DNA from: a virus
Direction: 5' to 3' (one strand)
DNA length: 47,324 bases
Virus record (IMG/VR): IMGVR_UViG_3300033148_002360
Span: 1 to 47,324 of that record
The notes under the pieces were generated by a model, which made no database searches, was not told the origin of the DNA, and was given only the letters and a program-made list of their open reading frames with translations. Made by a program: the position numbers and the translations under genes. Positions 7,372 through 33,599 of this stretch are shown here, in pieces. The stretch's first letter is position 1. Each line of letters opens with the position of its first letter.

Positions 7372-7404
7372 CAATCTGCTCTCCTCTTAGCCGATGAATT
7401 TATT

Positions 7405-18285: not shown

Positions 18286-20295
18286 TTATTTACAATACCT
18301 CGAACTAATTTGTCCTTCTACACTGAGCGGCAGACCATTAGCCCAAGCTGGTCCGGATGTCATTATTTCACACATCTCAAGTAATCTATCATCGGCATTC
18401 TTTTTTGGCACACAGCCAACCAATTCATCATAACTGTGTAAAACTATCGGTATGCCAGCATTCTCACACTTCAGCAACCAATACCCTAATAAATCACGAC
18501 ACATTGCCTGAATGAGATTCTCAGTGATAGAACCACCCCATAAATGCCCGTGCAGATATTTAATACTATCATCTTTGGGTGATACTGAAGCGTGGCGATA
18601 GTTCATTACTCGTCCTGATGGGAGTCGCATTTTAGTGGTAGAACCTTGACGCGAGAATATAAGTTGTGCACATCTTGATATGTTATAGGTCGTTTGCTCT
18701 TTAGGATACTTAGTTGGCCATCGGAAGCATTTTTCGATTTCGGTCCAGAAGGCGGGGATTTTACTATATTTGGTGCGGTAAGCCTTGCCAAGTCGATCAA
18801 TGAAATCCCAGTCATATTCACCACTGTCGAAGAGAGGACGCAAAGCATCATTTTGTCGACATCTATCGAAGGCGGTATTAGTACCCATGCCATAACCTCG
18901 TCCAAGAATGGTATCTTTCCCAAAGCCTCTTCTAATATCAGCCGTTTGGCCTTCAAGAGTTTTCTTTTCTTCCTCTGTTGGCTTCCAAACCTTTGCTTGA
19001 AATAATTCCGAAGCGAATATAGAGTAAATATCTTCACCATCTGCAAACCCTTTTACAAGATCATTCTGGTGTGCTACCCAAGCTAATTCACGAGCTTCAA
19101 TTTGCGCACTATCAACGATTATCAATGTGTGGCCGTCTGGTGCCATTAGCGTGTTACGTATTTGAGCGATGAGTGGATGGATTGGACGTCCTCGGCCTTT
19201 GCCACCCAGATTCATTGGATTCCAGCCACCCGTTCCTGACCATCGCCCCGTATGAGCACCGTAATACTTCAGAGGCATTCGAATCAGACCACCCGAGCAT
19301 TTAGTTTGTGTAATCATACGTTTAACCTTGCTCTGATGCAACGGCCAACTTGAGCAGGCAGCTTTTGCCCTACATAAGTTACGCACGCGTTCGTCTTTAT
19401 GAGATAATAATAATTGAAATGCTACATCATTCTGTGCGAGGGCAGGGATCATTTCATTCTTACCCTGTTTCATAGGTACTACTTCATCTTCAGGTAAAAT
19501 ATCTTGGAGTATTTGTGGGAAAATTTTCTTAGCACGCATTATTTTCGAGATGTTGGACTTTGTCTTAGTCCTGTATTTGAGGACCCAGGCCACTTTTGCC
19601 AGATCTTCCTGTAGTGCTTCATCCATATCTGCCGCGATCTTATTAGCTTGTAGTGTATCCAATTTAAGAATCGGCTTAAGATATAAGTTAAGCGTATGCC
19701 GGGCCAAGTCAAGCTCAACACCAGGATTATCAACCATCGGTAACAGAATTTCCAATAACGATTTTTCATTTTCAATATCCCTTAAACAATATTCTTTCAT
19801 AGCTTGACGTTGTTCTGGCGTCATTGATTCCCAGTATAACCCTTTGAATTGCTTAGTATCGCCCTTGGCCGGCAGTTTGAAAAGTTTAGCAAGGTCTTTG
19901 AGTCCCTGCTTCATACGGCTGTCATAATATCTTGATAAATCTTCGATGTCAATAGTGTAAGATGGATAAATATCAAATTTCTCGACCAGAATTAAACAAT
20001 CAAACTTGTTATTTTTGGCAACCACAGTGCAATTATGCAATGCTTTTCCATATTTCTTTTTCAGTTGTTCGATAGCCCATTCCACATGCGGGCCGGGAAT
20101 GAATCGAGGTGATTGATCGTTAATCTGAATGCCAAGTCCGGTGAAGCAGAATCGAGGGTCAGTAACATACTCGACTATCGATAAAGCGTTCTTGCCTTTG
20201 CCTAAATGATAATCGGCATCGAAAAATGATTCAAAATCTATCAAAAGAACATCAGTAGGCCAATTAATAGATTGTAATATTTCAGTAATAGTCAT
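18286..20295 (-). CDS. Family A DNA polymerase with 3'-5' exonuclease, 669 aa
   Basis: Exonuclease domain: LLIDFES (D20, E22), NNKFD (about 95-99) and YCLRDIE (about 169-175). Polymerase domain: THTGRWS-like AHTGRWSG (347-354), motif A VDSAQIEAR (394-402), motif B RRGFGK...YGMG (K460, Y468) and motif C LHSYDELV (D623, E624). Two oddities: the residue matching E. coli Pol I Phe762 is Leu464, and the His just before the Asp-Glu pair is replaced by Tyr622. No 5' nuclease domain. This is the phage replicase. ATG 20295 overlaps the upstream stop. Confidence 0.92.
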   Translation of the reverse strand: MTITEILQSINWPTDVLLIDFESFFDADYHLGKGKNALSIVEYVTDPRFCFTGLGIQINDQSPRFIPGPHVEWAIEQLKKKYGKALHNCTVVAKNNKFDCLILVEKFDIYPSYTIDIEDLSRYYDSRMKQGLKDLAKLFKLPAKGDTKQFKGLYWESMTPEQRQAMKEYCLRDIENEKSLLEILLPMVDNPGVELDLARHTLNLYLKPILKLDTLQANKIAADMDEALQEDLAKVAWVLKYRTKTKSNISKIMRAKKIFPQILQDILPEDEVVPMKQGKNEMIPALAQNDVAFQLLLSHKDERVRNLCRAKAACSSWPLHQSKVKRMITQTKCSGGLIRMPLKYYGAHTGRWSGTGGWNPMNLGGKGRGRPIHPLIAQIRNTLMAPDGHTLIIVDSAQIEARELAWVAHQNDLVKGFADGEDIYSIFASELFQAKVWKPTEEEKKTLEGQTADIRRGFGKDTILGRGYGMGTNTAFDRCRQNDALRPLFDSGEYDWDFIDRLGKAYRTKYSKIPAFWTEIEKCFRWPTKYPKEQTTYNISRCAQLIFSRQGSTTKMRLPSGRVMNYRHASVSPKDDSIKYLHGHLWGGSITENLIQAMCRDLLGYWLLKCENAGIPIVLHSYDELVGCVPKKNADDRLLEMCEIMTSGPAWANGLPLSVEGQISSRYCK

Positions 20296-20456
20296 GTTAT
20301 AATGCGGCCATTGCGTTTGATTAATCCGCGTTTCATTAATGCCTTGTATTCCTTTTCATACTGTAAGAAAGTCATTTTACCTCTGGCATACCTATCACGC
20401 AAATCTTGTTCTTCCCTGCCAGTACAACATGGCCTGCGCTTTGAACCTTTACCCAT
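20292..20456 (-). CDS. Small basic protein, 54 aa
   Basis: Starts MGKGSKRRPCCTGREEQDL, an N terminus seen in many small phage proteins of unknown role. Strongly basic and helical. ATG 20456 overlaps the phosphoesterase stop (TAATG), so the longer start at 20474 is not needed. Confidence 0.7.
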   Translation of the reverse strand: MGKGSKRRPCCTGREEQDLRDRYARGKMTFLQYEKEYKALMKRGLIKRNGRIIT

Positions 20457-21175
20457 TATTTTCTCCCGTTCCAACCTTTGTTCTCAAATTTAGATTTATG
20501 ATACTTCTCACCTCGTCCACATGGCATAATAAAATGTTGAGGTATGCCGTCAATAATAACTGCTGCCGATAAGATAGGCCGTTTTCGCATGTGCCTGCCG
20601 TAAGCAAATTGCCAGGCATCAACGTCAATCCCACAACCTACATCCATGCCAAACGTCCGTTGATCTGGATTTGCCGACCATTTAACACCTGATGCTGTAT
20701 GGCAATGTCCCATAGACACAGACATTAGATGGTCCTTCATAGCATTGTATGCCGGATATAAACCGCTTCTACCAGTGCCGTGAAAATGATATACTCCATC
20801 AATAATAATATCTTCAACCCATTTCCAAGTCGGCGTATTCCATACCGTATTGAAATCACGCAAGTATTGAGGCGGAATATTAACTGATTCCGCAAGTCGA
20901 AGAACGCGCATATCATGGTTTCCTATTGTAATAATCGCTTTTGGAAAGTCTTTATGCCACAATCGCATTTTTTGTTTAGTTAGCTGGTATTCATCATTGG
21001 GGCCGGGGCACATCGGATTTGCAGCATGAAAACTAATTGCGTGATGATCACAAATATCGCCCTTTATGACTGTTTTAGTTGTCTTAAATTTTCGCCGTAG
21101 GTCTCGACAGAATGCCCGATAGCCGGGATGTGCTACGGGTTCGTGCGGATCTCCGATGTCTAATACGCGGCTCAT
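20456..21175 (-). CDS. Metallophosphoesterase, 239 aa
   Basis: The calcineurin-type motifs appear in order: DIGDPH (residues 6-11), KGDICDHH (about 38-45), GNHDMR (about 93-98) and MGHCHTASG (about 155-163). The lone H in YHFHGTG supplies another ligand. The protein has no signal peptide. Substrate unknown: phosphodiesterase or nucleic-acid phosphatase activity is possible. It sits between the deoxyribonucleotidase and the polymerase, which suggests DNA or nucleotide metabolism. Confidence 0.85.
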   Translation of the reverse strand: MSRVLDIGDPHEPVAHPGYRAFCRDLRRKFKTTKTVIKGDICDHHAISFHAANPMCPGPNDEYQLTKQKMRLWHKDFPKAIITIGNHDMRVLRLAESVNIPPQYLRDFNTVWNTPTWKWVEDIIIDGVYHFHGTGRSGLYPAYNAMKDHLMSVSMGHCHTASGVKWSANPDQRTFGMDVGCGIDVDAWQFAYGRHMRKRPILSAAVIIDGIPQHFIMPCGRGEKYHKSKFENKGWNGRK

Positions 21176-21690
21176 ATTATTTCCTCCAACGAATTCTTAA
21201 CCACTTGTAATGCTTCGTCAGCCCATCCATGTAATTCATTCCAAGGACGCGGCACTAAAATTCCATGACCACCGGCTTCAATGAATTCGTCTATATTTTC
21301 ATCTTTATCATCGATGAGTAAAGTATCTGGCCGGGCCAATAAACGTTTTGGAGCTTGAGTGATGATAATGCGTTTAATAAATTCCGGTAAATTACCATCG
21401 ATCCACATCATTTTACCGGACGCTGATTCGAGATTTAACATAGGTGTAGTGAGCAAATAAATTCGGCTCAAATGAATTTTATCAAGAACTGCTTGCAATA
21501 TATCGCAACCATCATACATCCATTCAAGATTATTCCAGAAGGTTGCAGTGCAAATATTATTTACTTGGAGCCGAATTTCTGGAAAAAATTCATAAGTTTG
21601 CGGTGGGTAAGGCAAATGGAATTTATCGCAAACAGCCTTATTAAAATCAACAAGGACACCGTCCATATCTAAGAATATAGTCTTTATCAT
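21172..21690 (-). CDS. HAD-family 5'(3')-deoxyribonucleotidase-like phosphatase, 172 aa
   Basis: Motif I LDMDGVLVDF (residues 7-16) has both catalytic Asp residues; motif II is LLTTP (about 99-103), and motif IV LIDDKDENI (about 125-133) provides the metal ligands. The length and the LVDF cap start fit NT5C-type deoxyribonucleotidases, which remove phosphate from dNMPs and so tune nucleotide pools. Coupled to the metallophosphoesterase by ATGA. Confidence 0.8.
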   Translation of the reverse strand: MIKTIFLDMDGVLVDFNKAVCDKFHLPYPPQTYEFFPEIRLQVNNICTATFWNNLEWMYDGCDILQAVLDKIHLSRIYLLTTPMLNLESASGKMMWIDGNLPEFIKRIIITQAPKRLLARPDTLLIDDKDENIDEFIEAGGHGILVPRPWNELHGWADEALQVVKNSLEEII

Positions 21691-21956
21691 GTTTTTTCTT
21701 TCTTGATATACCAGATTAACATCCCTAACCAGACTGTATTCACCAATGTTACAGCCAAACTACCAGCAAAACTTAACCACTGGTCAAGATTTGTATAATA
21801 ATGAATATTCCAGTAACCCCATGCCGTAAAATAAGCTACGTGTACAAAACTCACACCCCGTACTTTTTTATCTCGATGAAGTTTAATACAACTGAGTGTT
21901 ATAAATAACCCACCCAAGAGTTCAAAAATTCCATTAATTACATCTGACCAATCCAT
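21687..21956 (-). CDS. SemiSWEET-like small membrane protein, 89 aa
   Basis: Three predicted membrane helices (about residues 8-24, 38-52 and 62-83). Between the first two lies a charged turn with KLHRDKKVRGVS, then an aromatic AYFTAWGYWNIHYY patch. This layout, with three helices, recalls the half-transporter SemiSWEET/PQ-loop proteins and a common phage membrane family. Transport function is not shown. Coupled to both neighbours. Confidence 0.65.
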   Translation of the reverse strand: MDWSDVINGIFELLGGLFITLSCIKLHRDKKVRGVSFVHVAYFTAWGYWNIHYYTNLDQWLSFAGSLAVTLVNTVWLGMLIWYIKKEKT

Positions 21957-22498
21957 TATTTATTTTCCTTTTCCAAATACTGTTTTAGTGCGTTTTCCGC
22001 AGCTTCTTTCGTTGGCCAATAACCAGGGGCTTCGCCGAATTTATATTCCTGACGACTACCACCTGTCCAACTATAAAATCGGCCATTTTTCCATAAATAC
22101 GTATCTGATTTCTTTTTATAAATATACCACCCGCATCCATCATTAAGCATTATCATCCATTCCTTAGGACAGATAGGCAGAAAATACTTCTCTTCTAATA
22201 AAGCTTGAAGCAATATACTATAATTACGGTCATCAGTGAGCTTTTCAAGCCACCATGCTTTAGAACGGCATGGCTTGCCATCCGCTAATTCATCAAGTCC
22301 TTGTCGAATTGAAGTCCGATGTTTCAACCACATGCCCCGTAACGCTTCAATAGGCGATACGCCATCTAATTCAGCCGCAAGTTTGAAATTGAACAGTTTA
22401 TCATCGCCGGCAGAATAATCAGCTGATTTATTACACATTACGTCCTTCATCCGTTTAGTTTCTCGTTCTACTAATTCATCGAATGCTTTGAAGTCCAT
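21956..22498 (-). CDS. DUF1599/MazG-like nucleotide-associated protein, 180 aa
   Basis: Residues 1-110 have the pattern KSADYS...NFKLAAELDG...EALRGMWLKHRTSI...DDRNYSILLQALL, matching the DUF1599 (nucleotide-modification-associated) type of all-helical MazG-related domain. A C-terminal module of about 65 residues (GCGWYIYKKKSDTYLW... to KEAAENAL) is an extra WY-rich extension. ATG 22498 has GGAG at proper spacing; the upstream TTG overlaps that site. It probably acts on nucleotides, in keeping with the next two genes. Confidence 0.65.
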   Translation of the reverse strand: MDFKAFDELVERETKRMKDVMCNKSADYSAGDDKLFNFKLAAELDGVSPIEALRGMWLKHRTSIRQGLDELADGKPCRSKAWWLEKLTDDRNYSILLQALLEEKYFLPICPKEWMIMLNDGCGWYIYKKKSDTYLWKNGRFYSWTGGSRQEYKFGEAPGYWPTKEAAENALKQYLEKENK

Positions 22499-22519
22499 AT
22501 CAATCTCCAATTAAAAAGA

Positions 22520-22591
22520 TGACCAGCTTTACTACCTTTCTATCCTACTCCGATTGTTATTGTGGCTGCAGGTGAGGATTCAAGCTGGTCA
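22520..22591. other. Inverted repeat after the regulator gene
   Basis: TGACCAGCTT (22520-22529) and AAGCTGGTCA (22582-22591) are perfect 10 bp arms 52 bases apart. On the leftward transcript the far arm is followed by ATCTTTTTAATT. It may stop or attenuate transcription after the regulator gene, or fold as a small structured RNA; the long loop makes a simple terminator unlikely. Confidence 0.4.
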
Positions 22592-22972
22592 AAATTTATG
22601 TTTTGTACGCGCATCATCTATCTTAGAATTATATGATAATATTCTTTTTTTTGCTCCAGAGAGAAACATTCCTTTATCCCGTGCCCGTTGAAGTGCTAAT
22701 TGTACTGTCCTTTGCGACATTCCCATATATTCTGCTATTTCTTCGGTTGACCAGCCTTCGTCCATATAATAATGATAAACCTGAATTTCCAATTTTGTAA
22801 GAATCGGAAAATATTGTGGTAAAACTTTCTTTACAGCAGTTAATAAATAACTAATGGCACGTTGGCTAATGTCCATTTGCTTTGCTGCTTTTTCTTGGGT
22901 TAATCCTTTGAAATCATGATGGCACAATCGTAATGCCCGTTCTTGTTTTTTAGTTATAAGTCTTTTATTCAT
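22589..22972 (-). CDS. Two-HTH regulator, sigma-region-4-like, 127 aa
   Basis: Two helix-turn-helix units are visible. The first is at about residues 24-50 (LTQEKAAKQMDISQRAISYL), and the second, better one at about 73-100 (WSTEEIAEYMGMSQRTVQLA). Both match the -35-binding region 4 of sigma factors and related phage late regulators. A basic tail follows. No region 2 (the -10 binder) is present, so it may work with host sigma or as an activator. It is preceded by a 39 bp element shared with the late arm. The 5' end folds as CCTCT-TTGT-AGAGG over the GAGGG ribosome site. Confidence 0.75.
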   Translation of the reverse strand: MNKRLITKKQERALRLCHHDFKGLTQEKAAKQMDISQRAISYLLTAVKKVLPQYFPILTKLEIQVYHYYMDEGWSTEEIAEYMGMSQRTVQLALQRARDKGMFLSGAKKRILSYNSKIDDARTKHKF

Positions 22973-22981
22973 TATATCCCT

Positions 22982-23020
22982 CTACAAAGAGGTAGAATAC
23001 GAAGGTATTTAGAAGGTTTT
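22982..23020 (-). promoter_or_regulatory. Shared 39 bp control element, regulator copy
   Basis: On the minus strand this reads as two ACCTTC words 11 bp apart, then GTATT and CCTCT and TAG. It matches 29521-29559 at 34 of 39 positions, with the first 25 identical (22996-23020). It points toward the HTH gene, whose ATG is 24 bp from the identical block. Confidence 0.7.
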
Positions 23021-23055
23021 TAGAAAATAATCTGAAAATTTTCTTGAAAATAAAC

Positions 23056-23187
23056 TTATCGGGCGTTTAGAATTTCATCTTCAGGGATATTAAATATACC
23101 GAGATACGTAAGACGGCCATTTATTTGTATCTGTGCTTGTGGTCGTCCATGAGTATAACTAACGCCTCTATATTTTTGATGAGTCAT
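23056..23187 (-). CDS. AP2-like DNA-binding mini-protein, 43 aa
   Basis: The core KYRGVSYTHGRPQAQIQING followed by RLTYLGIFNIPEDEI is the three-strand part of an AP2/ERF domain (YRGV start, A-Q-I strand, YLG-F turn). The usual C-terminal helix is cut short, ending after LNAR. AP2 domains in phages usually accompany HNH homing nucleases, but none is adjacent. ATG 23187 overlaps the stop of the upstream gene. Either a stand-alone strand-only binder or the remnant of a longer protein. Confidence 0.6.
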   Translation of the reverse strand: MTHQKYRGVSYTHGRPQAQIQINGRLTYLGIFNIPEDEILNAR

Positions 23188-23372
23188 AATAGAATTATCT
23201 CATAATCACCAAGTGTATCATGTCCATATTTACGGTCTGGGTTGTCTTTTTCGACCCCATTGATGTCATAATCGTGAAGTTCTACATCAATATCATCTAA
23301 TCCGCTTATTACCTCTACTAAACCGTGCCTCACATCAATAATGATTTTTCTGTTCATATCAAACTCTTTCAT
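23184..23372 (-). CDS. Hypothetical acidic protein, 57-62 aa
   Basis: Begins MNRKIIIDVRHGLVEVISGL from ATG 23357, or five residues earlier from ATG 23372, which overlaps the upstream stop (ATGA). The latter start is used here. The DDIDVELHDYDINGV stretch resembles small phage proteins of unknown role. Confidence 0.6.
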   Translation of the reverse strand: MKEFDMNRKIIIDVRHGLVEVISGLDDIDVELHDYDINGVEKDNPDRKYGHDTLGDYEIILL

Positions 23373-23524
23373 TCTGTTATCCCATTTTCTAAACTTTCTG
23401 CAAACGTTAAAGCGAATCGCATCAGCATATCGTCAACTGCCTGTCTATCCGGCTCATCCCGTAAAAACTCACGATGTTCAACAATGTCGGCTATTGTAAG
23501 TGTTGTTTGCTTTATCTTTTTCAT
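23369..23524 (-). CDS. Hypothetical protein, 51 aa
   Basis: Reads MKKIKQTTLTIADIVEHREF and ends ENGITE; helical and charged. Its stop overlaps the next start by ATGA, which supports translation. No motif recognised. Confidence 0.55.
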   Translation of the reverse strand: MKKIKQTTLTIADIVEHREFLRDEPDRQAVDDMLMRFALTFAESLENGITE

Positions 23525-23532
23525 TTTATACT

Positions 23533-23721
23533 TCACCCCCCATCACCATATTTACGTTCCAGTCCCTTACGTTGAGCCACTATCTTTTCATAAACCAATT
23601 TAGCTACTCGCTCACCATCTTTAATCCCGTATCCGGCAATGAAACGGGTAGCAAAATTTTGGGCTATTATTGGTAAGGGTTTGTCAAGTTTAATGTTTTT
23701 CTTTGCTCTGGCCATTATCAT
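23533..23721 (-). CDS. Hypothetical basic protein, 60-62 aa
   Basis: Basic, helical (MARAKKNIKLDKPLPIIAQ...). Two possible starts, 23721 (overlapping the upstream stop) and 23715 (better spaced from AAGGA). No motif recognised. Confidence 0.55.
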   Translation of the reverse strand: MIMARAKKNIKLDKPLPIIAQNFATRFIAGYGIKDGERVAKLVYEKIVAQRKGLERKYGDGG

Positions 23722-24008
23722 CCTTTTTCTGATATTGCTTTGGCGATGGCTTTTTTAATCTGCGAATGACAAAAATCTGATACTGTGTATGCAAATTTTT
23801 CTTTATCCCATTCCGCTAATTCCATAAAATCTTCACATGCAGCCAACAGATCAGGTGCAGCAGCTATTAGACGGGCGTTAGCTTCATCTTCAGTTTTGTA
23901 TTCTTCCCTATGTTCTATCATTGTACAGATTCTTTGTTGGCCTATATTTTGCCCAACAATAATATCTTTGCCATTAAATTTCCATTCACCTTTCGTATGC
24001 TCATTCAT
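23718..24008 (-). CDS. Phage protein with ANARLIAAAPDLL motif, 96 aa
   Basis: The start at 24008 (MNEHTKGEWKFNGKDI) has an AGGA site; the frame is open further upstream but overlaps another gene. The segment EDEANARLIAAAPDLLAACED is a hallmark of a very widespread phage family of unknown function. A beta-rich N-terminal half precedes this helix. Confidence 0.75.
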   Translation of the reverse strand: MNEHTKGEWKFNGKDIIVGQNIGQQRICTMIEHREEYKTEDEANARLIAAAPDLLAACEDFMELAEWDKEKFAYTVSDFCHSQIKKAIAKAISEKG

Positions 24009-24036
24009 TTTCTTATCCTTTCTCACCTTGTAAATC

Positions 24037-24234
24037 TCACCAATACTTTTTAGGGATGCCGGCGTCGATAAGTATTTTGTCATCAAATTCATATCCGCAT
24101 TCTTCCATAAATTTAACGTCATCTTTGACAACAAAATCAAACGCTCTGCCGCCGCAAGGCCGGTCTGGATATTCACCATTATCAAATTTTTTGCATTCTC
24201 GGCAGAACATCCACGCTGTTAGTTTATTGTTCAT
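24037..24234 (-). CDS. Hypothetical protein, 65 aa
   Basis: Starts MNNKLTAWMFCRECKKFDNG; one CREC pair and a further Cys (RPCGG) hint at a metal site. Coupled by ATGA to the upstream gene. No family recognised. Confidence 0.55.
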   Translation of the reverse strand: MNNKLTAWMFCRECKKFDNGEYPDRPCGGRAFDFVVKDDVKFMEECGYEFDDKILIDAGIPKKYW

Positions 24235-24467
24235 CTCATCACCTCAAATTCTACACCGCCTATCATATCATCCCCATCAAGAATGGCGATCATACCATAC
24301 GGCTGATAGATGTACTCCGGCGGGTCAATAAACTCACCGTTCTCATCAATATAATCACATATATCACCGGCTATAAACTCTTGACTTGTGCAAACAAAAT
24401 CGCCGTTTCTGTTTTTCTTAAAACGCTGTTGCACTTCTCCGCTTGTTCTCTTAATAAAGCTGTCCAT
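24231..24467 (-). CDS. Hypothetical protein, 78 aa
   Basis: Acidic protein (GDICDYIDENGEFIDPPEY), probably beta-rich. ATG 24467 lies 10 bp after the stop of a 35-codon gene, with GTGAGGACAG as ribosome site. A longer overlapping frame at 24371-24598 on the same strand is judged non-coding. Confidence 0.6.
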   Translation of the reverse strand: MDSFIKRTSGEVQQRFKKNRNGDFVCTSQEFIAGDICDYIDENGEFIDPPEYIYQPYGMIAILDGDDMIGGVEFEVMR

Positions 24468-24477
24468 ATTTCTGTCC

Positions 24478-24585
24478 TCACTTTCTGTAATTCCACACGC
24501 ACCACGCTACGATAATCGTTAACAGCCCAAGTACCATCGCTAACATTGCAGCGTGAAACATAAACCCTAAATAATACATAATCAT
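24478..24585 (-). CDS. One-TM microprotein, 35 aa
   Basis: Nearly the whole chain is one membrane segment (MIMYYLGFMFHAAMLAMVLG and on to WNYRK). The ATG has the strongest ribosome site in the region, GGAGGTGAAAA. Its end supplies the GTGAGG site for the next gene. It is too short for most gene callers. Function unknown. Confidence 0.65.
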   Translation of the reverse strand: MIMYYLGFMFHAAMLAMVLGLLTIIVAWCVWNYRK

Positions 24586-24588
24586 TTT

Positions 24589-24801
24589 TCACCTCCACGA
24601 GTCTATAATTGTCATTAAAGATAAACTAACATATCCTTTTTTGCTCATGTCCATAACAATCTTTTTACAAGTTTTACATCGGTTATCGTCGTTAAAGTGT
24701 TGGACAAATCCTTCCATATTGAACAGAAAAGTCTTTGGCGACTCTTTCGCCTGCCCGCAGGCACTCACGTTTTTACCTGGATATTTATAGTGATATTTCA
24801 T
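24589..24801 (-). CDS. Hypothetical protein, 70 aa
   Basis: Begins MKYHYKYPGKNVSACGQAKE and carries a CKTCKK pair at about residues 42-47. The phrases suggest a small zinc-binding phage protein. ATG 24801 has an AAAGGAAAG site. Confidence 0.6.
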   Translation of the reverse strand: MKYHYKYPGKNVSACGQAKESPKTFLFNMEGFVQHFNDDNRCKTCKKIVMDMSKKGYVSLSLMTIIDSWR

Positions 24802-24816
24802 TATGCTTTCCTTTTA

Positions 24817-25281
24817 TTATTTAGTTTCTATTTCTTTTATTTGTTTCCATAACTTCTCATCGTAAAGCTCATCCCACTTCATATCAGGGCTAAAACTACG
24901 ACCGCCACTGACACACTCAAAAACAGGATAATCCTTTTCTGTTAGCTCTGGTATGGCTGCTCGTAAGTCGTCCCAATAATCATAGCCACTGAAGTCGAAG
25001 ACAGCCTCATCCCCATCAATATCTAAAATCATCTTCACATAGTATTCAAGGCTGTCAGTTGTTATTTCAGTTTGTACTGCTTGTCTCCAGCAGTCCTCAA
25101 AATATTTTATCACGTCGGGATTGTTAGGATTTGTCCTATTCTCATAATCTTCACAAGCAACGGGGCGTAATACGGTTGCTATTGCGCCTTTGAAATCGTC
25201 TGTATGCTCGAATAAAGCATCACAAAAATAATAATCATTACCAATCCGACCAACTAATTTCTTTATTTGTGTTCGTGTCAT
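24817..25281 (-). CDS. Hypothetical protein, 154 aa
   Basis: Acidic and aromatic (DDFKGAIATVLRPVACEDYE, VFDFSGYDYWDDLRAAIPEL); no catalytic motif is obvious. Good AAGGAG ribosome site. It is the longest gene in the early microgene cluster, so it may be one of its more important host-interaction proteins, but the role is unknown. Confidence 0.65.
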   Translation of the reverse strand: MTRTQIKKLVGRIGNDYYFCDALFEHTDDFKGAIATVLRPVACEDYENRTNPNNPDVIKYFEDCWRQAVQTEITTDSLEYYVKMILDIDGDEAVFDFSGYDYWDDLRAAIPELTEKDYPVFECVSGGRSFSPDMKWDELYDEKLWKQIKEIETK

Positions 25282-25282
25282 T

Positions 25283-25510
25283 TTATTCTCCTTTTTGTTT
25301 TAGTATTACAATCTTTTCCATACGCTGACACAGGGCAATATTTTCGCTACCGCAAACAGCGCAAAGAAAAACATCGTCTGCGCCCATCGTAGAGAAGCTG
25401 CCCCGTGTCCCACTAAACATATGTCCGCAATCTTGACACTGCATAAACTCACCTCGTCTTTGGCCATAGTCTTTGTCTGATATATCTGTTAGATCTTTTC
25501 GTTTAATCAT
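25283..25510 (-). CDS. Zinc-ribbon protein, 75 aa
   Basis: Two CxxC pairs, MQCQDCGHMF (about 24-27) and FLCAVCGSEN (about 51-54), form a classic zinc ribbon. The C-terminal helix RMEKIVILKQKGE follows. Ribosome site GAGGATG. Possibly a nucleic-acid-binding or transcription-associated protein. Confidence 0.65.
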   Translation of the reverse strand: MIKRKDLTDISDKDYGQRRGEFMQCQDCGHMFSGTRGSFSTMGADDVFLCAVCGSENIALCQRMEKIVILKQKGE

Positions 25511-25520
25511 TTTTACATCC

Positions 25521-25778
25521 TCATTTTAATAATGGAAACCCCCAAAACAGTCGATGGGTGTTCTTGATGTCTTTCGGTATTTTCTTAGTCCATTTTAATC
25601 CCAACCAATAGCGTCCAGCGATCCTCGAAACAGGTATTTTCTCAAGATGACAATTCATAGTATAATCCTGCTCAGGCGCCACTCTGTCAAAATCCAGTAT
25701 CGGCCAGGCAAGCTCACTACCAACACGAGATATAACTAATCCCGTATCAGTATCTATTGCGTATTGTATCGTTTTCAT
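25521..25778 (-). CDS. Hypothetical protein, 85 aa
   Basis: Start ATG 25778 (MKTIQYAIDTDTGLVISRV) with AGAGAA site is preferred over an upstream in-frame start. Mixed alpha/beta, no motif. The N-terminal phrase is common in phage proteins of unknown role. Confidence 0.6.
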   Translation of the reverse strand: MKTIQYAIDTDTGLVISRVGSELAWPILDFDRVAPEQDYTMNCHLEKIPVSRIAGRYWLGLKWTKKIPKDIKNTHRLFWGFPLLK

Positions 25779-25780
25779 GT

Positions 25781-25969
25781 TTAATTCTCTATTGCGCACG
25801 CTTCAAGGAATCTGTTGCCGTCAAAACGTGGGTTATCTGCTGCGAAATAATCGGCTAATTGCGTGCTTATTGTTGATAATACTAATTCAGTGGGCGTTCC
25901 GCCCCGATAATCTTCTCTTGCTTCTTTGATGATCCTTGCTATCGCTTTATAGTGTTGTCTCGTTAACAT
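25781..25969 (-). CDS. Phage protein with RQHYKAIARIIKEA motif, 62 aa
   Basis: Reads MLTRQHYKAIARIIKEAR, then LADYFAADNPRFDGNRFLEA, a very common small phage family of unknown function. The upstream leader, AATCAGAGAGAGTGAGGGTA, belongs to a recurring initiation cassette in this cluster. Confidence 0.7.
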   Translation of the reverse strand: MLTRQHYKAIARIIKEAREDYRGGTPTELVLSTISTQLADYFAADNPRFDGNRFLEACAIEN

Positions 25970-25996
25970 ATTTTTACCCTCACTCTCTCTGATTAG

Positions 25997-26209
25997 TTAA
26001 CTGATATTTGATACCTTGTAAAGAATATTCTTTATTTCGCATTCTTCTTGATAACTTAAATCAGCTTTTTCTAATTTATTTTCCATAAATTGTCTAATTG
26101 CCTTCTGTCCGTAGTTTTCACATATTTGTTTTTTACCTGTAGTTATATCTGATTGTAGTTTCTCTACAAGATGAACAGCCTGCTTCATTATTCTTTTATG
26201 CTCATTCAT
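25997..26209 (-). CDS. Hypothetical helical protein, 70 aa
   Basis: All-helical, charged (MNEHKRIMKQAVHLVEKLQS...). Leader CAGAAAGTAGGGCATAAA. No motif recognised. Followed downstream by the 25781-25969 gene. Confidence 0.55.
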   Translation of the reverse strand: MNEHKRIMKQAVHLVEKLQSDITTGKKQICENYGQKAIRQFMENKLEKADLSYQEECEIKNILYKVSNIS

Positions 26210-26227
26210 TTTATGCCCTACTTTCTG

Positions 26228-26407
26228 TTATTCTGCCCATTCACAAGGATATAATGCTTCAAGTGTTTCATCTATTTGTTTCGAGATAGTATAATAAATC
26301 TCAAGTCCTAAATCCTCAAAGCTTAATTCTCTGCCTTGACCGTGGGCATCTATTGTTTTTACTGTAATAGTCCAACTTTGGATCTTCTCATTTTCATTTA
26401 GTTTCAT
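26228..26407 (-). CDS. Hypothetical protein, 59 aa
   Basis: Begins MKLNENEKIQSWTITVKTID and ends YPCEWAE. The start resembles that of the gene at 26936-27307 (MKLNKNEKQRF). The GTGAGGCGGTAAAATG leader fits the local pattern. No motif. Confidence 0.6.
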   Translation of the reverse strand: MKLNENEKIQSWTITVKTIDAHGQGRELSFEDLGLEIYYTISKQIDETLEALYPCEWAE

Positions 26408-26445
26408 TTTACCGCCTCACTTATTTGTTCGTTTAAGCCCGTTTA

Positions 26446-26565
26446 TTATAGTAACTTCAATATCTGTTTCATTATATGGACTTCTTTTTGTAATATCCAC
26501 AATGGTATAGTATTAAATTGATCATAATAGCTTATGGCTTTTAATTTTTTAATCAAGCGTTCCAT
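26446..26565 (-). CDS. Possible leaderless microgene, 39 aa
   Basis: ATG 26565 falls exactly seven bases downstream of the -10 box at 26572-26577, so it would be the first base of the transcript, with no room for a ribosome site. The frame (MERLIKKLKAISYYDQFNTI and on) is basic and helical. It may be a leaderless gene, or the ATG may simply be part of the promoter. Confidence 0.4.
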   Translation of the reverse strand: MERLIKKLKAISYYDQFNTIPLWILQKEVHIMKQILKLL

Positions 26566-26571
26566 ATGTAT

Positions 26572-26600
26572 AGTATAACACATGTTTGGTTATTATGCAA
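26572..26600 (-). promoter_or_regulatory. Sigma70-type promoter P1 (leftward)
   Basis: -35 TTGCAT (26600-26595), a 17 bp spacer containing AAACATGTGT, and -10 TATACT (26577-26572), followed by ATACATATGGA. Very similar to P2 and P3. Confidence 0.75.
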
Positions 26601-26603
26601 GTT

Positions 26604-26933
26604 TTATTTCATCGGATAAGCTAAATTATTTTTATCTCTCGGCAGCATATTCGGCCTGCGACACATTATACATATTCGACTGAGCGGTGAAATAAACTGC
26701 CCTATCGGCTTTCGCAATCGGCATTTACTACACAATTTAACTTGTTGCGGTTTGTTCCTGTACGTCCACAATTTAGGTGATAGATGACTTCTTTCCCACT
26801 TTTGCACTTTACGCCATTGTAGAATTGATCTGCGATTTTCACGATAATATTTCCGCCGATTGGCAAGTTTCTGTTCCGGTGTTAGCTTTAGCCTTGTCCT
26901 ATCTGATTTTGCTATTGGATATTTGTTGTCCAT
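26604..26933 (-). CDS. Zinc-finger-like protein, 109 aa
   Basis: The N-terminal two thirds are basic and helical (KLTPEQKLANRRKYYRENRR), followed by a CSKCRLRKPIGQF ... CIMCR zinc module (about residues 72-97). This HNH-like basic/zinc arrangement suggests DNA binding, but no HNH catalytic residues are clear. ATG 26933 lies just after the upstream stop; an upstream TTG is less likely. Confidence 0.6.
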   Translation of the reverse strand: MDNKYPIAKSDRTRLKLTPEQKLANRRKYYRENRRSILQWRKVQKWERSHLSPKLWTYRNKPQQVKLCSKCRLRKPIGQFISPLSRICIMCRRPNMLPRDKNNLAYPMK

Positions 26934-26935
26934 AT

Positions 26936-27307
26936 TTATATGACCATTTTCCAAGTTGTTAGCGTTTTAGCTGTTTCGATACGCCATTGCTTAAATGCTT
27001 TAATAGTTTCATTGGCTGTTTTAGGGCAAAACGCCTTTTTTAATAATTCACAAGACGCCGATTTTCGACAATATCTATGCCGTATAGTCCCGCCATAATA
27101 AAAAGTAACACAACCTAAATCACCAGGTTTTGTATTACTGCCGTCAAAAAGACAACAACTGATATTGTCAATTAAAGTATGGTATTCTTTTGGCGTTTTG
27201 TAATAGTGTGGGACGAGATTCAATCTATGTAATACCGGCGATATACTAAATCCCTCTTTCCTTAAATAATTGATAAACCGTTGTTTCTCATTTTTATTCA
27301 GCTTCAT
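26936..27307 (-). CDS. Hypothetical protein, 123 aa
   Basis: Starts MKLNKNEKQRFINYLRKEGF behind the strong site TAGGAGGATATGAC. A weaker in-frame ATG at 27340 lies inside promoter P2 and would add 11 residues. Five Cys residues are spread through the chain; no motif is recognised. First gene after promoter P2. Confidence 0.6.
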   Translation of the reverse strand: MKLNKNEKQRFINYLRKEGFSISPVLHRLNLVPHYYKTPKEYHTLIDNISCCLFDGSNTKPGDLGCVTFYYGGTIRHRYCRKSASCELLKKAFCPKTANETIKAFKQWRIETAKTLTTWKMVI

Positions 27308-27344
27308 GTCATATCCTCCTATTAAGTTATCATTGACCATGTAT

Positions 27345-27373
27345 ATTATAACACATGTTTAATCGTTATGCAA
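27345..27373 (-). promoter_or_regulatory. Sigma70-type promoter P2 (leftward)
   Basis: -35 TTGCAT (27373-27368), 17 bp spacer with AAACATGTGT, and a consensus -10 TATAAT (27350-27345), followed by ATACATGG. It would drive the gene at 26936-27307. Confidence 0.8.
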
Positions 27374-27866
27374 ATTAAATTTTTGTCTATGTAAAGATTA
27401 TTTTGCATAGTGTACTTAGACGTAAAATAGCCTATTATGGCTTGCTATGGCTGTTGTGTCTATATATGTCTATGTATATTGTAGTAACATAGACAGGATT
27501 AAACCTTTATTAGGAAAGTATTTACATCTATATTTTACTATGTCTATATAGATAAAACTATTTACTATTAAAATAGAGTATATATAGTATAGTAATATAG
27601 TAGGGATTATATAATATGTGTATATATGTATAGTAGTATTTTACTTTACATAGACATCATAGACATTCCCGATAACTGCTTATGTAATAAGGGATTATGC
27701 TGTCTATAAATCGACAATTCACCTAGACATACCTAGACGCAAGTGTCCGATAATATTATGTTGATAAAAATAAACATCCATGTTGATAATTATAAACGTT
27801 ACTGTTTCCCAGAAACAACATGCCGACACGACCAATATAATATCATCCCTGATATTCGACCAGCTG
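27374..27866. other. Gene-free AT-rich zone, candidate origin/operator region
   Basis: No credible gene in about 490 bp. It contains many TGTCTATRT words and their complements: 27384, 27457, 27467, 27487, 27541, 27648, 27657 and 27701, then ACCTAGAC at 27721 and 27731 (10 bp apart). An 18 bp direct repeat lies at 27758-27797. The composition and repeats fit a replication origin or repressor-bound control region; neither is proved. Confidence 0.55.
27758..27797. repeat. Tandem 18 bp repeat, 22 bp period
   Basis: ATGTTGATAAAAATAAAC (27758-27775) and ATGTTGATAATTATAAAC (27780-27797) differ at two bases and are spaced by two helical turns, as expected for adjacent protein-binding sites. Confidence 0.7.
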
Positions 27867-28067
27867 CTAAGTAAAATCAAATACTACATAGTCTTTTTCG
27901 ACTATAAGTTTTCCGCCAAGTTTTTGCGCTATATCGAGGCAGTTTAGCCCCCATTGTAGCTCCATAGATTCTTCTGATATAAAACGTTTGTTTAATAGCT
28001 TAACTATCAATTTCAAATAATCTGTTTTATCCTCATCTTTTTGTACAATTTCAATCGGCATTGTCAT
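27867..28067 (-). CDS. Hypothetical protein, 66 aa
   Basis: MTMPIEIVQKDEDKTDYLKL and so on, ending VEKDYVVFDFT; alpha/beta, no motif. ATG 28067 behind GGGGATAAGAAAA. Last gene of the promoter P3 unit before the repeat-rich zone. Confidence 0.55.
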   Translation of the reverse strand: MTMPIEIVQKDEDKTDYLKLIVKLLNKRFISEESMELQWGLNCLDIAQKLGGKLIVEKDYVVFDFT

Positions 28068-28072
28068 TTTTC

Positions 28073-28210
28073 TTATCCCCTAAATTCTTTTGGCTGTGGG
28101 ATTATATATTCTTCACACGTGATGTCCACTGTGTTCCCGCACATCGGGCAACTCTTGCCCTCGTCGTCCAACCAACAACATCCACATTCGTTACATTCGT
28201 ACTCATACAT
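28073..28210 (-). CDS. Zinc-ribbon microprotein, 45 aa
   Basis: CNECGCCW near the N terminus (about residues 6-12) and CPMCGN (about 21-26) form a two-knuckle zinc ribbon of rubredoxin-like type, with another Cys later. Leader GAGAAAGCGAGGGTAATC is the recurrent cassette. Too short for most gene callers. Confidence 0.65.
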   Translation of the reverse strand: MYEYECNECGCCWLDDEGKSCPMCGNTVDITCEEYIIPQPKEFRG

Positions 28211-28212
28211 GA

Positions 28213-28329
28213 TTACCCTCGCTTTCTCGGATAGTATTTATATTGTTTGCCGTCTTTTTCACAAACGACCACTCTTTTCTGTTTGTTGGCATACTCTTTG
28301 CCTTCTGCATGAGTTTTGATTTGTTTCAT
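28213..28329 (-). CDS. Basic microprotein, 38 aa
   Basis: Lysine-rich (MKQIKTHAEGKEYANKQKRV), ends PRKRG. The codons for RKRG double as the ribosome site of the next gene. Leader GAGAAAACGAGGGTAATT. Function unknown. Confidence 0.55.
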   Translation of the reverse strand: MKQIKTHAEGKEYANKQKRVVVCEKDGKQYKYYPRKRG

Positions 28330-28331
28330 AA

Positions 28332-28571
28332 TTACCCTCGTTTTCTCTGATTAGCGATGTGTTGGTTAACCCCGTCCATATACCAGACGTACCAAACAGA
28401 ACTTTCAGTATTTATTCGTTTTTTAATTGTCTGCCAACTACATTCCGGCCATAAAGATTTTAGATAGTCTATGGAGTATTGTTCATCATCCATAGCGCAA
28501 TCGATAATATCATTCAGATCTTCACTTGCCGCAATTTGTTGGTCATCTTCTAATTGCCATACGTCTGTCAT
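28332..28571 (-). CDS. Hypothetical acidic protein, 79 aa
   Basis: Starts MTDVWQLEDDQQIAASEDLN; acidic N-terminal half and aromatic C terminus (WYVWYMDGV). ATG 28571 behind GTGAGGCACAAG is chosen; the GTG at 28583 is part of that site. Ends QRKRG like the next gene. Confidence 0.6.
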   Translation of the reverse strand: MTDVWQLEDDQQIAASEDLNDIIDCAMDDEQYSIDYLKSLWPECSWQTIKKRINTESSVWYVWYMDGVNQHIANQRKRG

Positions 28572-28579
28572 CTTGTGCC

Positions 28580-28789
28580 TCACTTTCTTATTCTTAAACT
28601 ATTACCAGAGATTTCTAATTGGCCGTTAGCAACTAAATCTTCCCAGGCGTGCATAAAATTTTGATTCCGTGTTGCCGGACCTGCAAGGCAATCAATAGCT
28701 AAATCATCTATTTTAATGTAGTCCTCAGCAGCTTTGCATAGCTTAATGATCTTGCTCTGATACTCAAGTATTTTCTTTACTGACTTCAT
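28580..28789 (-). CDS. Hypothetical helical protein, 69 aa
   Basis: All-helical (MKSVKKILEYQSKIIKLCKA...), with a possible winged-helix-like ending (LEISGNSLRIRK). ATG 28789 with GAGATTGATT leader; an upstream GTG is rejected. Confidence 0.55.
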   Translation of the reverse strand: MKSVKKILEYQSKIIKLCKAAEDYIKIDDLAIDCLAGPATRNQNFMHAWEDLVANGQLEISGNSLRIRK

Positions 28790-28797
28790 AATCAATC

Positions 28798-28929
28798 TCA
28801 CTTTCTCTGATTATCTTGTACATGTTTGAACAGTCGAAGATAATCACGCCAAAGCTGGTTTGCTTCCGGTTGTGTGATGTATCCCCACAATACTAATTGT
28901 CTTAACCTGTTCTTCTTCATAGTTTTCAT
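28798..28929 (-). CDS. Hypothetical basic microprotein, 43 aa
   Basis: Reads MKTMKKNRLRQLVLWGYITQ and ends DNQRK. Helical, basic. Strong GTGAGGGGGC site. Its last codons (AATCAGAGAAAGTGA) supply the initiation cassette of the next gene. Confidence 0.6.
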   Translation of the reverse strand: MKTMKKNRLRQLVLWGYITQPEANQLWRDYLRLFKHVQDNQRK

Positions 28930-28967
28930 TTTAAGCCCCCTCACACTCTCTGTATTGGACGAACGCA

Positions 28968-29111
28968 CTATAATAGTGATAGATATGCCCTACAATAGTT
29001 TTTGTACTGAACCCATACGATAATATAATCGCAATAGGTGAAGTCTATATGAACAACTTTACCGTGGTTATATCTATCGTATATCCCAATTGGTCTTGTT
29101 ATTTTGTTCAT
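28968..29111 (-). CDS. Hypothetical microprotein, 47 aa
   Basis: Begins MNKITRPIGIYDRYNHGKVV; aromatic beta-rich end (CDYIIVWVQYKNYCRAYLSLL). AGAGAGGAATTG ribosome site. No motif. Confidence 0.55.
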   Translation of the reverse strand: MNKITRPIGIYDRYNHGKVVHIDFTYCDYIIVWVQYKNYCRAYLSLL

Positions 29112-29124
29112 AATCAATTCCTCT

Positions 29125-29205
29125 CTATAATAGCGACAAATACGCCATTATTGCAAGCAATAGCATTAGTCGCCCGTCTAAGTCTGTGAATAGTCTGTTA
29201 TCCAT
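29125..29205 (-). CDS. Possible leaderless membrane microprotein, 26 aa
   Basis: ATG 29205 lies exactly seven bases downstream of the P3 -10 box, so it could be the first base of the transcript. The frame (MDNRLFTDLDGRLMLLLAIM then AYLSLL) ends in one short hydrophobic segment. Same arrangement as at 26565. Translation is uncertain. Confidence 0.35.
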   Translation of the reverse strand: MDNRLFTDLDGRLMLLLAIMAYLSLL

Positions 29206-29211
29206 ATGTAT

Positions 29212-29240
29212 AGTATAACCTATGTATGGTATAAGTGCAA
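29212..29240 (-). promoter_or_regulatory. Sigma70-type promoter P3 (leftward)
   Basis: -35 TTGCAC (29240-29235), 17 bp spacer, -10 TATACT (29217-29212), then ATACATATGGA exactly as in P1. It is the first promoter of the leftward arm. Confidence 0.75.
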
Positions 29241-29443
29241 GTATATTTTTACTATTTTATGAAAATTCTTTTATCGGATGCTGTGTGTATATATATGCGA
29301 CGCCAACCGATGATTAGTCCGATAACTAAACCCCCCGTACCGACCCTTGCCCGTGATGTGTGGAATCCCGAGACACCCTCTCTTATAAACCCTCAACATT
29401 TCATTTTCAGTGTTAGATAATTACTTAACAACATATCCACGTA
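29241..29443. other. Divergent intergenic region, no supported gene
   Basis: An open frame on the + strand (29259-29420, MKILLSDAVCIYMRRQP...) has no ribosome site and Pro-rich, non-phage-like content. ATCGGA (29273) and TCCGAT (29309) form a loose inverted repeat. Nothing else is recognised. Confidence 0.3.
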
Positions 29444-29489
29444 TATATAGACAAAATCTCCGGAAAAGACAACATATATATAGACAAAA
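29444..29489. promoter_or_regulatory. Paired TATATAGACAAAA operators
   Basis: The 13 bp word TATATAGACAAAA occurs at 29444-29456 and 29477-29489, 33 bp (about three helical turns) apart. It contains the TAGACA core of the words in the 27.4-27.7 kb zone. Suggests one DNA-binding protein acts in both places. Confidence 0.45.
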
Positions 29490-29520
29490 AAAAATAAAAT
29501 ATTTTATATTTTTATTTACG

Positions 29521-29559
29521 AAAACCTTCTAAATACCTTCGTATTTCCCCTCTATATAG
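29521..29559 (+). promoter_or_regulatory. Shared 39 bp control element, late-arm copy
   Basis: Two ACCTTC words (29524-29529, 29535-29540) 11 bp apart, GTATT, CCTCT, and a TATATAG (29553-29559) in -10 position. 34 of 39 bases match 22982-23020 read on the minus strand. The late-arm first ATG is at 29591. Candidate activator-dependent late promoter. Confidence 0.7.
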
Positions 29560-29590
29560 AAAGACATATGTTTTATGCCCTGGAGAAAAT

Positions 29591-29776
29591 ATGACCCCAC
29601 AACAAATAGCAGCCATATACGATAGTTTCACTCCGGAAGAACAGAATATACCTCGTTCAGAATTCATTAAACGGACTATGGATGCTCTGGATCCGAATAA
29701 AATGATGCAGGAAGCCAGCACAATAGCCAAAGGCCGGATACAGCGAAAACAAATTAATGAGGCTCTGCAAAGATGA
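29591..29776 (+). CDS. Hypothetical protein, 61 aa, first late gene
   Basis: MTPQQIAAIYDSFTPEEQNI, then a helical basic tail (AKGRIQRKQINEALQR). CTGGAGAAAAT site. First gene of the rightward arm. Role unknown. Confidence 0.65.
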   Translation: MTPQQIAAIYDSFTPEEQNIPRSEFIKRTMDALDPNKMMQEASTIAKGRIQRKQINEALQR

Positions 29777-31679: not shown

Positions 31680-33599
31680 ATGATTGATGTAGCCGAAAAA
31701 CTCAAACCCGAACTTGCGACGCCCTTTCCAAATGTTCCTGAAATATGGACGTGTCCAAAAACTGGACTGGCTGTCCCCAAACAGGAAATACCCAATCTTA
31801 AATATAGAGAAGGTATTTTACGGGATGCTGAGTATGATAAGGGTTTTCAGGCTGATTTAATGGCTGCGAGCAAAGAATCTCTTTTATTCTGGGTCAATTC
31901 GTTTGTCTGGACTTTTCATCAGTTCGATGTTGAAGGTAGTACCGGGGAACGATATGAAGCCAAAGCAGTACATTGCCCTTTTATAAGTTGGGAGATTCAA
32001 GATGTCCTGTTTGAGCGGTTAATATGGCACCTTAAAAATGCTAAAGATATTCTGATTAATAAGTCACGTGATATGGGTGCCTCGTGGATATGTACTATTT
32101 TTATGCACTGGCTATGGCTGTTTAGACCCAATTCACAGTTGCTTGAATTATCAAGAACCGAACCATATGTAGATCAAGCTGGTAATATGAAGGCATTGTT
32201 CCAGAAACACGATTATATTAATACCTGGCTCCCGGAATGGATGGTGCCACCGATGACTGGTGTGGGGCAGAAATATCGCACCAAGATGCACTCATATAAT
32301 GTGTTGAATGGTTCATGCATTGATGGAGAATCAACTACAGAACACGCAGCATCAGGTGATAGGCGATTGGTTGCCCTTCTTGACGAATTTGCTAAGGTGA
32401 AACACGGTCGACTGATGCGTTCTGCAACGCGAGATGCTGCGCTGATGCGTATTGTTAATAGTACAGTAGCCGGACCTGGCACCGAATATTCTAAGTGGAA
32501 GAATGATAGAACAATCATAGTGTTTCCATTAATGTGGTGGGATCACCCTGATAAAGGCCTTAATCGCTACGTCGTTCAAGATCCAGTGACAAATGTTTGG
32601 AAGATTCGCTCGCCCTGGTATGATGCAGAATCAGAAGTTAGATCTCCACAGGAAATGGCAAGAGAAATTGATGCTAATGATCTTGAAGCCGGTTCAGCAT
32701 TTTTCACTATTGCGAATATTGATAAGCATATAGCAATATTCGGCAAACCACCTAAAACACAGTGGAACGTGGATTTTGTAAGAGGAGTGCCGAGTGATAA
32801 CATCCCAACAATTCTTAAGAAAAAGAACATTAAGAAAATAGCGTATAAGAGAGCAGTTAAAGGCAGACTTAAAATCTGGGTTAATTTAATAAATGGTAGG
32901 CCAGATCAGAATCTTGATTATGTTATCGGCTTTGATCTGAGTAAAGGCCAGGGTGCTTCTAATTCAGTCGGTTCGATTAAGTGCCGACAAACTGGTGAGA
33001 AGATAGGCGAGTGGGCTGATGCTAATACGCCACCGTATGAAATGGCCCGTATTGCTATGGCCTTGGCTTTGTGGGTTGGCGGCAGAAAAAAACTTCCATT
33101 TTTGAAATGGGAAATGAATGGTGATCCCGGTTTTGATTTTGGCAGGATAGTTGTTAAACAGTTTTATTATCCGTACTATTATCGTGATGTGAAAGCTGGT
33201 AATATTAGGGATAAGAAAACTAAGAAATATGGATGGCATAATCATAAAGATTCTAAAGGTGAACTTCTTAATGCTTATGACCGGGCACTTGCTCATGGAG
33301 GTTATATCAACCATTCAATTAAATCACTCGAAGAAGCTAAGACATATATTTACAATGATGATGGATCAATCGGACCAACGTGTTTAGTAGAGGAAAGCAA
33401 TGCAGCAAAGAAAACACATGGTGACAGAGTAATAGCTGACGCCCTTACGATTGAAGACAAATATTATAAAATGAGAACTCATGTAGAAGTGTCAAGTTCT
33501 CGTAGTAATATGCGGACAGCCGCAGGTAGGAAAGCAGCGTGGAAAAAGAAAAGAACTAAGCCGAAGGGATGGAGAAGTCCATTCGATTTCAGAGGATAG
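31680..33599 (+). CDS. terL: Terminase large subunit, 639 aa
   Basis: ATPase part: a deviant Walker A NKSRDMGAS (about 127-135), Walker B LVALLDEF (230-237) with the catalytic Glu, and a coupling motif STVAGPG (about 261-267). Nuclease part: VIGFDLSKGQ (about 415-424; first Asp), WEMNGDPG (about 477-484), and TIEDKYYK region with Asp near 600 (HGDRVIADAL). This is the DNA-packaging motor that cuts concatemers. The deviant Walker A (no GK[ST]) is known in some terminases. Weak ribosome site; 2 bp after the small subunit. Confidence 0.92.
   Translation: MIDVAEKLKPELATPFPNVPEIWTCPKTGLAVPKQEIPNLKYREGILRDAEYDKGFQADLMAASKESLLFWVNSFVWTFHQFDVEGSTGERYEAKAVHCPFISWEIQDVLFERLIWHLKNAKDILINKSRDMGASWICTIFMHWLWLFRPNSQLLELSRTEPYVDQAGNMKALFQKHDYINTWLPEWMVPPMTGVGQKYRTKMHSYNVLNGSCIDGESTTEHAASGDRRLVALLDEFAKVKHGRLMRSATRDAALMRIVNSTVAGPGTEYSKWKNDRTIIVFPLMWWDHPDKGLNRYVVQDPVTNVWKIRSPWYDAESEVRSPQEMAREIDANDLEAGSAFFTIANIDKHIAIFGKPPKTQWNVDFVRGVPSDNIPTILKKKNIKKIAYKRAVKGRLKIWVNLINGRPDQNLDYVIGFDLSKGQGASNSVGSIKCRQTGEKIGEWADANTPPYEMARIAMALALWVGGRKKLPFLKWEMNGDPGFDFGRIVVKQFYYPYYYRDVKAGNIRDKKTKKYGWHNHKDSKGELLNAYDRALAHGGYINHSIKSLEEAKTYIYNDDGSIGPTCLVEESNAAKKTHGDRVIADALTIEDKYYKMRTHVEVSSSRSNMRTAAGRKAAWKKKRTKPKGWRSPFDFRG

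Follow-up and report, generated by a model that had tools for sequence, protein, structure and literature searches.

A two-part promoter element before a regulator gene and before the virion genes suggests a probable self-amplifying switch in a family of uncultivated phages

Xpf-type factors of PBSX (NF005385, phrog_1190) are phage-borne, sigma region 4-like proteins that are thought to switch on late genes. Other phage systems combine some of the features that are described here. In phiEco32 and 7-11, phage-specific promoters stand before structural genes as well as before the gene for the transcription factor that the phage encodes, and the early genes are read from host-type promoters (PMC4331800). 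The MotA box of T4 is centred at -30, lies 12 +/- 1 bp from the retained host -10 and replaces the -35 (PMC2988021). The Ltr/Alt proteins of staphylococcal and lactococcal phages are small activators of the promoter before the terminase and virion genes and have repeat sites upstream of the start (PMC13123087). Among cluster A mycobacteriophages, the DNA-binding specificity of the repressor and its stoperator sites drift together in related phages (PMC6550527). An earlier description of the DNA analysed here had seen an unusual late-switch design in it; precedents for such a design exist, however (PMC4331800, PMC2988021), and layout, -35 replacement and co-drift are already known. What is new here is a putative activator made of tandem region 4-like domains, with a site that is in two parts and changes fast.

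As in phiEco32 and 7-11, the phage promoter precedes both structural genes and the gene of the factor itself, an arrangement seen in 12 phages, one of them (G035) tentative. The factor of phiEco32 and 7-11 is, however, a full sigma with an anti-sigma partner, whereas the regulator described here has 127 aa, two region 4-like helix-turn-helix (HTH) domains and no region 2. The likeness to MotA is one of anatomy only: an activator box takes the place of the -35 and the -10 is retained (here -45 to -22, TATAGA and no -35), and the MotA box centre at -30 compares with a second half-site at -30 to -22. MotA has a double-wing DNA-binding domain and needs AsiA, in contrast to the tandem HTHs, the longer two-part site and the lack of a known AsiA in our case. 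The HTH2 region of the regulator has weak local similarity to the Xpf-type factors, but only the region 4 part matches, and the NF005385 model scores 37.2 bits, well below its cut-off of 136. Alt of TP901-1 has four repeats at -76 to -32 (PMC13123087), whereas here there is one two-part site, at -45 to -22, and the promoter of the regulator gene has it as well. Finally, the cluster A protein is a repressor with up to 30 sites, compared with a presumed activator and two or three promoter sites here.

The window, that is the whole stretch of DNA analysed, is a virus record; it measures 47,324 bp and carries a terminal direct repeat of 114 bp. Its phage is called W here. The leftward arm runs from about 29,200 downwards through small genes and the regulator (22589-22972, minus strand) to nucleotidase, DNA polymerase A, nuclease and primase-like genes. 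Directly 3' of the regulator, on the same strand (18286-22510, minus), are genes for a phrog_6802 protein, the nucleotidase, a phosphoesterase and DNA polymerase A. The rightward arm begins with a gene at 29591-29776 (plus) and contains terminase, portal and other virion genes, with TerL at 31680-33599. The switch had been described as one of the late arm, which it would include, but because the regulator gene heads the replication genes it would be an early to middle plus late switch. Between the regulator and the next gene, a long-loop inverted repeat (TGACCAGCTT ... AAGCTGGTCA, then TCTTTTT; 22515-22592, minus) is a possible attenuator or terminator. Elsewhere in the window, near-identical direct repeats (7151-7270 and 7595-7714, 444 bp apart, inside the genes 6955-7374 and 7405-7839, both minus) are probably a recent tandem duplication.

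The two arms share an exact 25-mer, AAAACCTTCTAAATACCTTCGTATT, which in the window occurs only at 22996-23020 (minus) and 29521-29545 (plus); by composition, 5.6e-6 such repeats would be expected. Much of the preliminary description holds at this level: 34 of 39 positions match over the longer block, the copies point to the regulator gene and to the first rightward gene, the words ACCTTC-N5-ACCTTC occur in the window at these two places only, and the hexamer ending in TAG is real, being the slot of a family-wide TATAGARGG. The regulator-side element (22981-23020, minus) comprises half-site 1 (23019-23006), half-site 2 (23004-22996) and the -10-like TGTAGA (22986-22981). Its late-arm counterpart (29521-29560, plus) comprises half-site 1 (29522-29535), half-site 2 (29537-29545) and TATAGA (29555-29560). 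With this TATAGA taken as -12 to -7, half-site 1 covers -45 to -32 and half-site 2 covers -30 to -22, thus the site spans the -35 slot. The element itself has no -35 hexamer, and neither copy in W is among the sigma-70-type sites of a promoter scan. In W (TGTAGA) and in the relative G001, the regulator copy has a poor -10-like sequence. A candidate third copy in W at 29162 (minus; matrix score 14.8) coincides with a sigma-70-like TTGCAA-18-TATTAT site and was not counted. Directly 3' of the late promoter, a short leader reading frame (MFYALEKI, stop; 29568-29594, plus) overlaps with its stop the start of the first late gene (ATGA).

The exact element of the window has no match in the viral contigs searched. 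The regulator alone as query led to one viral contig, TerL to 63 and an alignment of regulators to 14 loci; a search of 30 records found regulators in 10. Near-duplicates (G011/G012 and G014/G027) were each counted once. The 12 distinct phages with both places readable, W included and G035 tentative, each carry their version of the element before the regulator and again before the late arm: the upstream stretch of about 23 bp varies between phages and matches within each phage, and the -10-like TATAGARGG is constant. G001 (85% identical to W in TerL, 58% in the regulator) has no copy of the 25-mer and carries a different block, GAAACCTTGCAAATAGTTCCAATTCTCCGGTA, before both genes. A position matrix was trained on eight regulator-upstream copies, all from relatives and none from the window. 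It picks out the late-arm copy in G001, G002, G009, G010, G011/12, G014/27 and partial contigs without a regulator; essentially every close relative whose region could be read has one. Across the family the sequence is about AAAAGGTTGTATAGAAGGCTAATTTCCCGGTAATATAGAGG. An intermediate form, AAACCTTCCAAATAGTTCCAATT, is present in both copies of G034; its upstream half is W-like and its downstream half G001-like. W has one nucleotide more between the half-sites than the other phages, in both copies. In distant relatives the upstream part is wholly different, yet again common to both places in one phage; the copies of G018, for instance, are identical at 43 of 43 positions and quite different from those of W. 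The late copies of G018, G035, G036 and G037 were chosen by likeness to the regulator copy, and the G035 match, judged by score alone, is not above background. In G016 and G023, the two most distant carriers of the regulator gene, we saw no shared element.

That the element is shared only by regulator and late arm holds for the window and not for all relatives, some of which have a third copy on the leftward strand. G036 and G037 have three copies each, and third copies near the divergent region, before small genes, are seen at L010 319(-), L100 6199(+), L114 1855(-) and L028 279(-), the one in L010 preceding a zinc-finger-like gene. The ACCTTC pair does not survive as a recognised unit: relatives carry, for example, ACCTTCcAAATAGTTCCAATT, ACCTTGcAAATAGTTCCAATT and GGTTGtATAGATGGCTAATT at those positions, and the nearest ones keep the upstream word only. 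A search of the relatives for ACCTTC-N5-ACCTTC at regulator and late arm, as had been suggested, thus finds the exact pair to be peculiar to the window, while the element itself recurs at both places. Self-similarity at 10-11 bp is mildly raised when W is left out (z about 3, for copies that are not independent), and a tandem structure of the site is plausible but not proven. Relatives also have a conserved hairpin, GGTAAGCARCCCAG...CTGGGYCATGCTTACCCCGGA, in the late leader just 3' of the element (L010 2118-2195, L014 1837-1910, L016 2445-2528, L018 1072-1137, L023 468-533, L032 1180-1262, L043 1416-1487 and L097 2137-2207(-)). It was not found in W and has no Rfam match in L010, L014, L016 and L018; across the loci searched, Rfam returned one tRNA and no other match. 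Its position suggests a leader RNA, with put-like antitermination or a similar role.

When regulator copies were compared with late copies in a matrix of 11 phages, the true pairs summed to 224, against 85 +/- 19 for permutations, with none of 200,000 as high; here and in the comparisons below, the genomes are few and their pairs are not independent. As similarity had guided the choice of some distant late copies, the comparison was repeated with the seven phages in which position or the matrix had located the late copy, and here the true pairing was the single best of 5,040. Matching of this kind within each phage argues that both sites of one genome are held together by a common factor, and that its specificity differs between phages.

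Several observations suggest which factor this is. Similarity of regulator residues 24-49 (HTH1) follows that of half-site 1 (rho 0.73, eight phages, exact permutation p 0.0018; rho 0.61 and p 0.001 with ten genomes), whereas for HTH2 and half-site 2 the relation is weak (rho 0.17-0.19, p 0.12) and the cross terms are small; the half-sites were aligned manually. Against half-site 1, values between -0.36 and 0.18 were obtained for TerL, portal, DNA polymerase, the small conserved proteins that were tested, HTH2 and the C-terminal tail. For whole element and whole regulator, a Mantel test given TerL is modest (0.34, p 0.013). Among the leftward-arm proteins of W, only the regulator is present in all eight relatives compared. 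It matches Pfam Sigma70_r4_2 in two stretches (6e-14, 51.8 bits, cut-off 25.7), has a conserved C-terminal tail ending in KF and is predicted by AlphaFold to fold into helices 8-17, 26-32, 37-50, 60-71, 76-83 and 87-99 (mean pLDDT 83). Of the parts of a sigma-70 family factor it has the region 4 HTH and lacks region 2, its 127 aa holding only the two HTHs; region 2 (PF04542), which serves -10 recognition and core binding, was also absent from the window and nine relatives, with positive controls detected. A search of phage records with the regulator gave no relatives, sequenced genomes gave only generic archaeal HTH matches (33-42%) that point to no host, and solved structures gave only generic HTH, region 4 or LuxR-type folds (Z about 8, Foldseek E above 0.1); phrog_836, annotated 'late transcriptional activator', matches at 1e-4 over the HTH only. 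Since HTH1 tracks half-site 1, the regulator is found in all eight relatives, and neither a region 2 nor a single-subunit polymerase was found, the regulator is most likely the reader of the element, a binding predicted from sequence comparison. In most relatives, paralogues lie just 5' of the regulator (L003 from 7509; L022, L009, L075, L090, L092): two-HTH proteins without the element, single-HTH proteins with the same C-terminal tail (MDxxIxxKF) and AP2-HTH1-tail fusions. In W a 43-aa AP2-domain-like gene (23056-23187, minus) adjoins the regulator promoter on its upstream side, and it is probably a remnant of the relatives' AP2-HTH paralogue.

A reading by some other factor, be it a host sigma, a host activator or another phage protein, with the regulator as merely one target, has room in that most genes of these phages have no known function. 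It is nevertheless improbable, as one would not expect a host factor to change its specificity anew for every one of a dozen related phages and, among the shared phage proteins tested, only HTH1 of the regulator tracks the site. Promoters of T7/SP6-like RNA polymerases have a start-proximal part of TATAG plus purines. The constant TATAGARGG can be likened to it, the leader of the regulator gene would still contain a Shine-Dalgarno if transcription began at the G of TATAG, and a phage single-subunit polymerase coevolving with its promoters would also explain the concerted change. We regard such a polymerase as very improbable, because PF00940 was not found in any of seven records, W and six relatives, whereas the T7 control gave 1e-109, and because in W, G001 and G009 the two copies of a phage agree 10-35 bp upstream of TATAG and differ close to it, the reverse of the pattern in T7-type promoters.

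The sign of the regulation is a separate matter, on which co-variation of binding sites is silent. The regulator could be a repressor that, with the element as its operator, keeps the late arm and its own gene silent up to a later stage of infection; in W, the late copy has a sigma-70-like TAGACA-18-TATATT whose end is 11 bp upstream of it. However, sites of this kind are within chance for the region (37 found, 31 +/- 6.5 expected), and none is evident upstream of the late copy of G001. The element also includes a conserved -10-like part at a constant distance and, like activator sites of the MotA type, overlaps the -35 slot, and we hold repression to be unlikely.

We return to activation, and consider it probable that the element is a phage-specific post-early promoter through which the phage's own two-HTH protein activates the regulator gene and the late arm. 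Conservation, position, concerted change in each phage and tracking by HTH1 are visible in the sequences; we infer direct binding, activation and not repression, a contact of HTH2 with half-site 2, the use of the host sigma and the timing. The core of the regulator switch proposed earlier is supported by the recurrence of the element at both places, by its co-variation and by the link to HTH1, while binding and sign belong to the model. The site at about -45 to -22 would replace the -35 hexamer beside a host-type -10 (TATAGARGG), HTH1 most likely contacting the upstream and HTH2 the downstream half-site. Activation would then take the place of the region 4/-35 contact, with the host polymerase keeping the -10; a site over the -35 slot, together with canonical early promoters, fits this. 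Host RNA polymerase would at first read the leftward arm from ordinary sigma-70 promoters, and read-through would produce some regulator. At the element of its own promoter the regulator would amplify itself and the replication genes behind it, and at the matching element at 29521 it would start the late arm.

The early promoters of these phages are canonical (TTGCAC-17-TATACT). In W the early leftward promoter (29212-29277, minus) has a CCGATAAA box from 29277, TTGCAC at 29240-29235, a 17-bp spacer and TATACT at 29217-29212. The regulator lies 6.2 kb downstream on the same strand and the minus strand between them has no terminator-like site, so that a first supply of regulator by read-through is plausible. 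In nine phages the box, TCCGATAAR, precedes the -35 of leftward early promoters by 36-37 bp; at regulator promoters it precedes the -10-like site by 72-84 bp, and it is absent at late promoters. In W its sites are 29277(-), 26615(-, a variant) and 23062(-), the last of which (CCGATAAG, 23055-23062, minus) belongs to the regulator promoter, about 75 bp upstream of its -10-like site. Among relatives it is found at L006 13377, L009 7209(-), L020 7443(-) and 5946(-), L022 7386(-), L025 7272(-) and 6172(-), L092 2400, L010 1781(-) and L014 1497(-), and it is often followed by AGAATTTTCA. The box might be an upstream activator site or a UP-like element. As it occurs at early and regulator promoters and not at late ones, the regulator promoter looks like a hybrid of the early and the element type, a distribution that supports a relay.

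The copies of the site and the part of the regulator that change together in a dozen phages suggest, as far as sequences can tell, that the later phase of infection is set off by a self-amplifying switch. An uncultivated phage family thereby gains a concrete, testable transcription programme. The dozen matched protein-site pairs form a natural series that is usable for the DNA-reading code of tandem region 4-like HTHs, and late promoters of metagenomic phages can be found by comparing what precedes the regulator gene with what precedes the virion arm. It is possible, although we put it forward tentatively, that free-standing tandem region 4-like proteins are a detachable -35 reader with one half-site per HTH, the halves evolving as separate modules. 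If so, related phages would keep rewriting the specificity of their late switch while the same -10 is kept.
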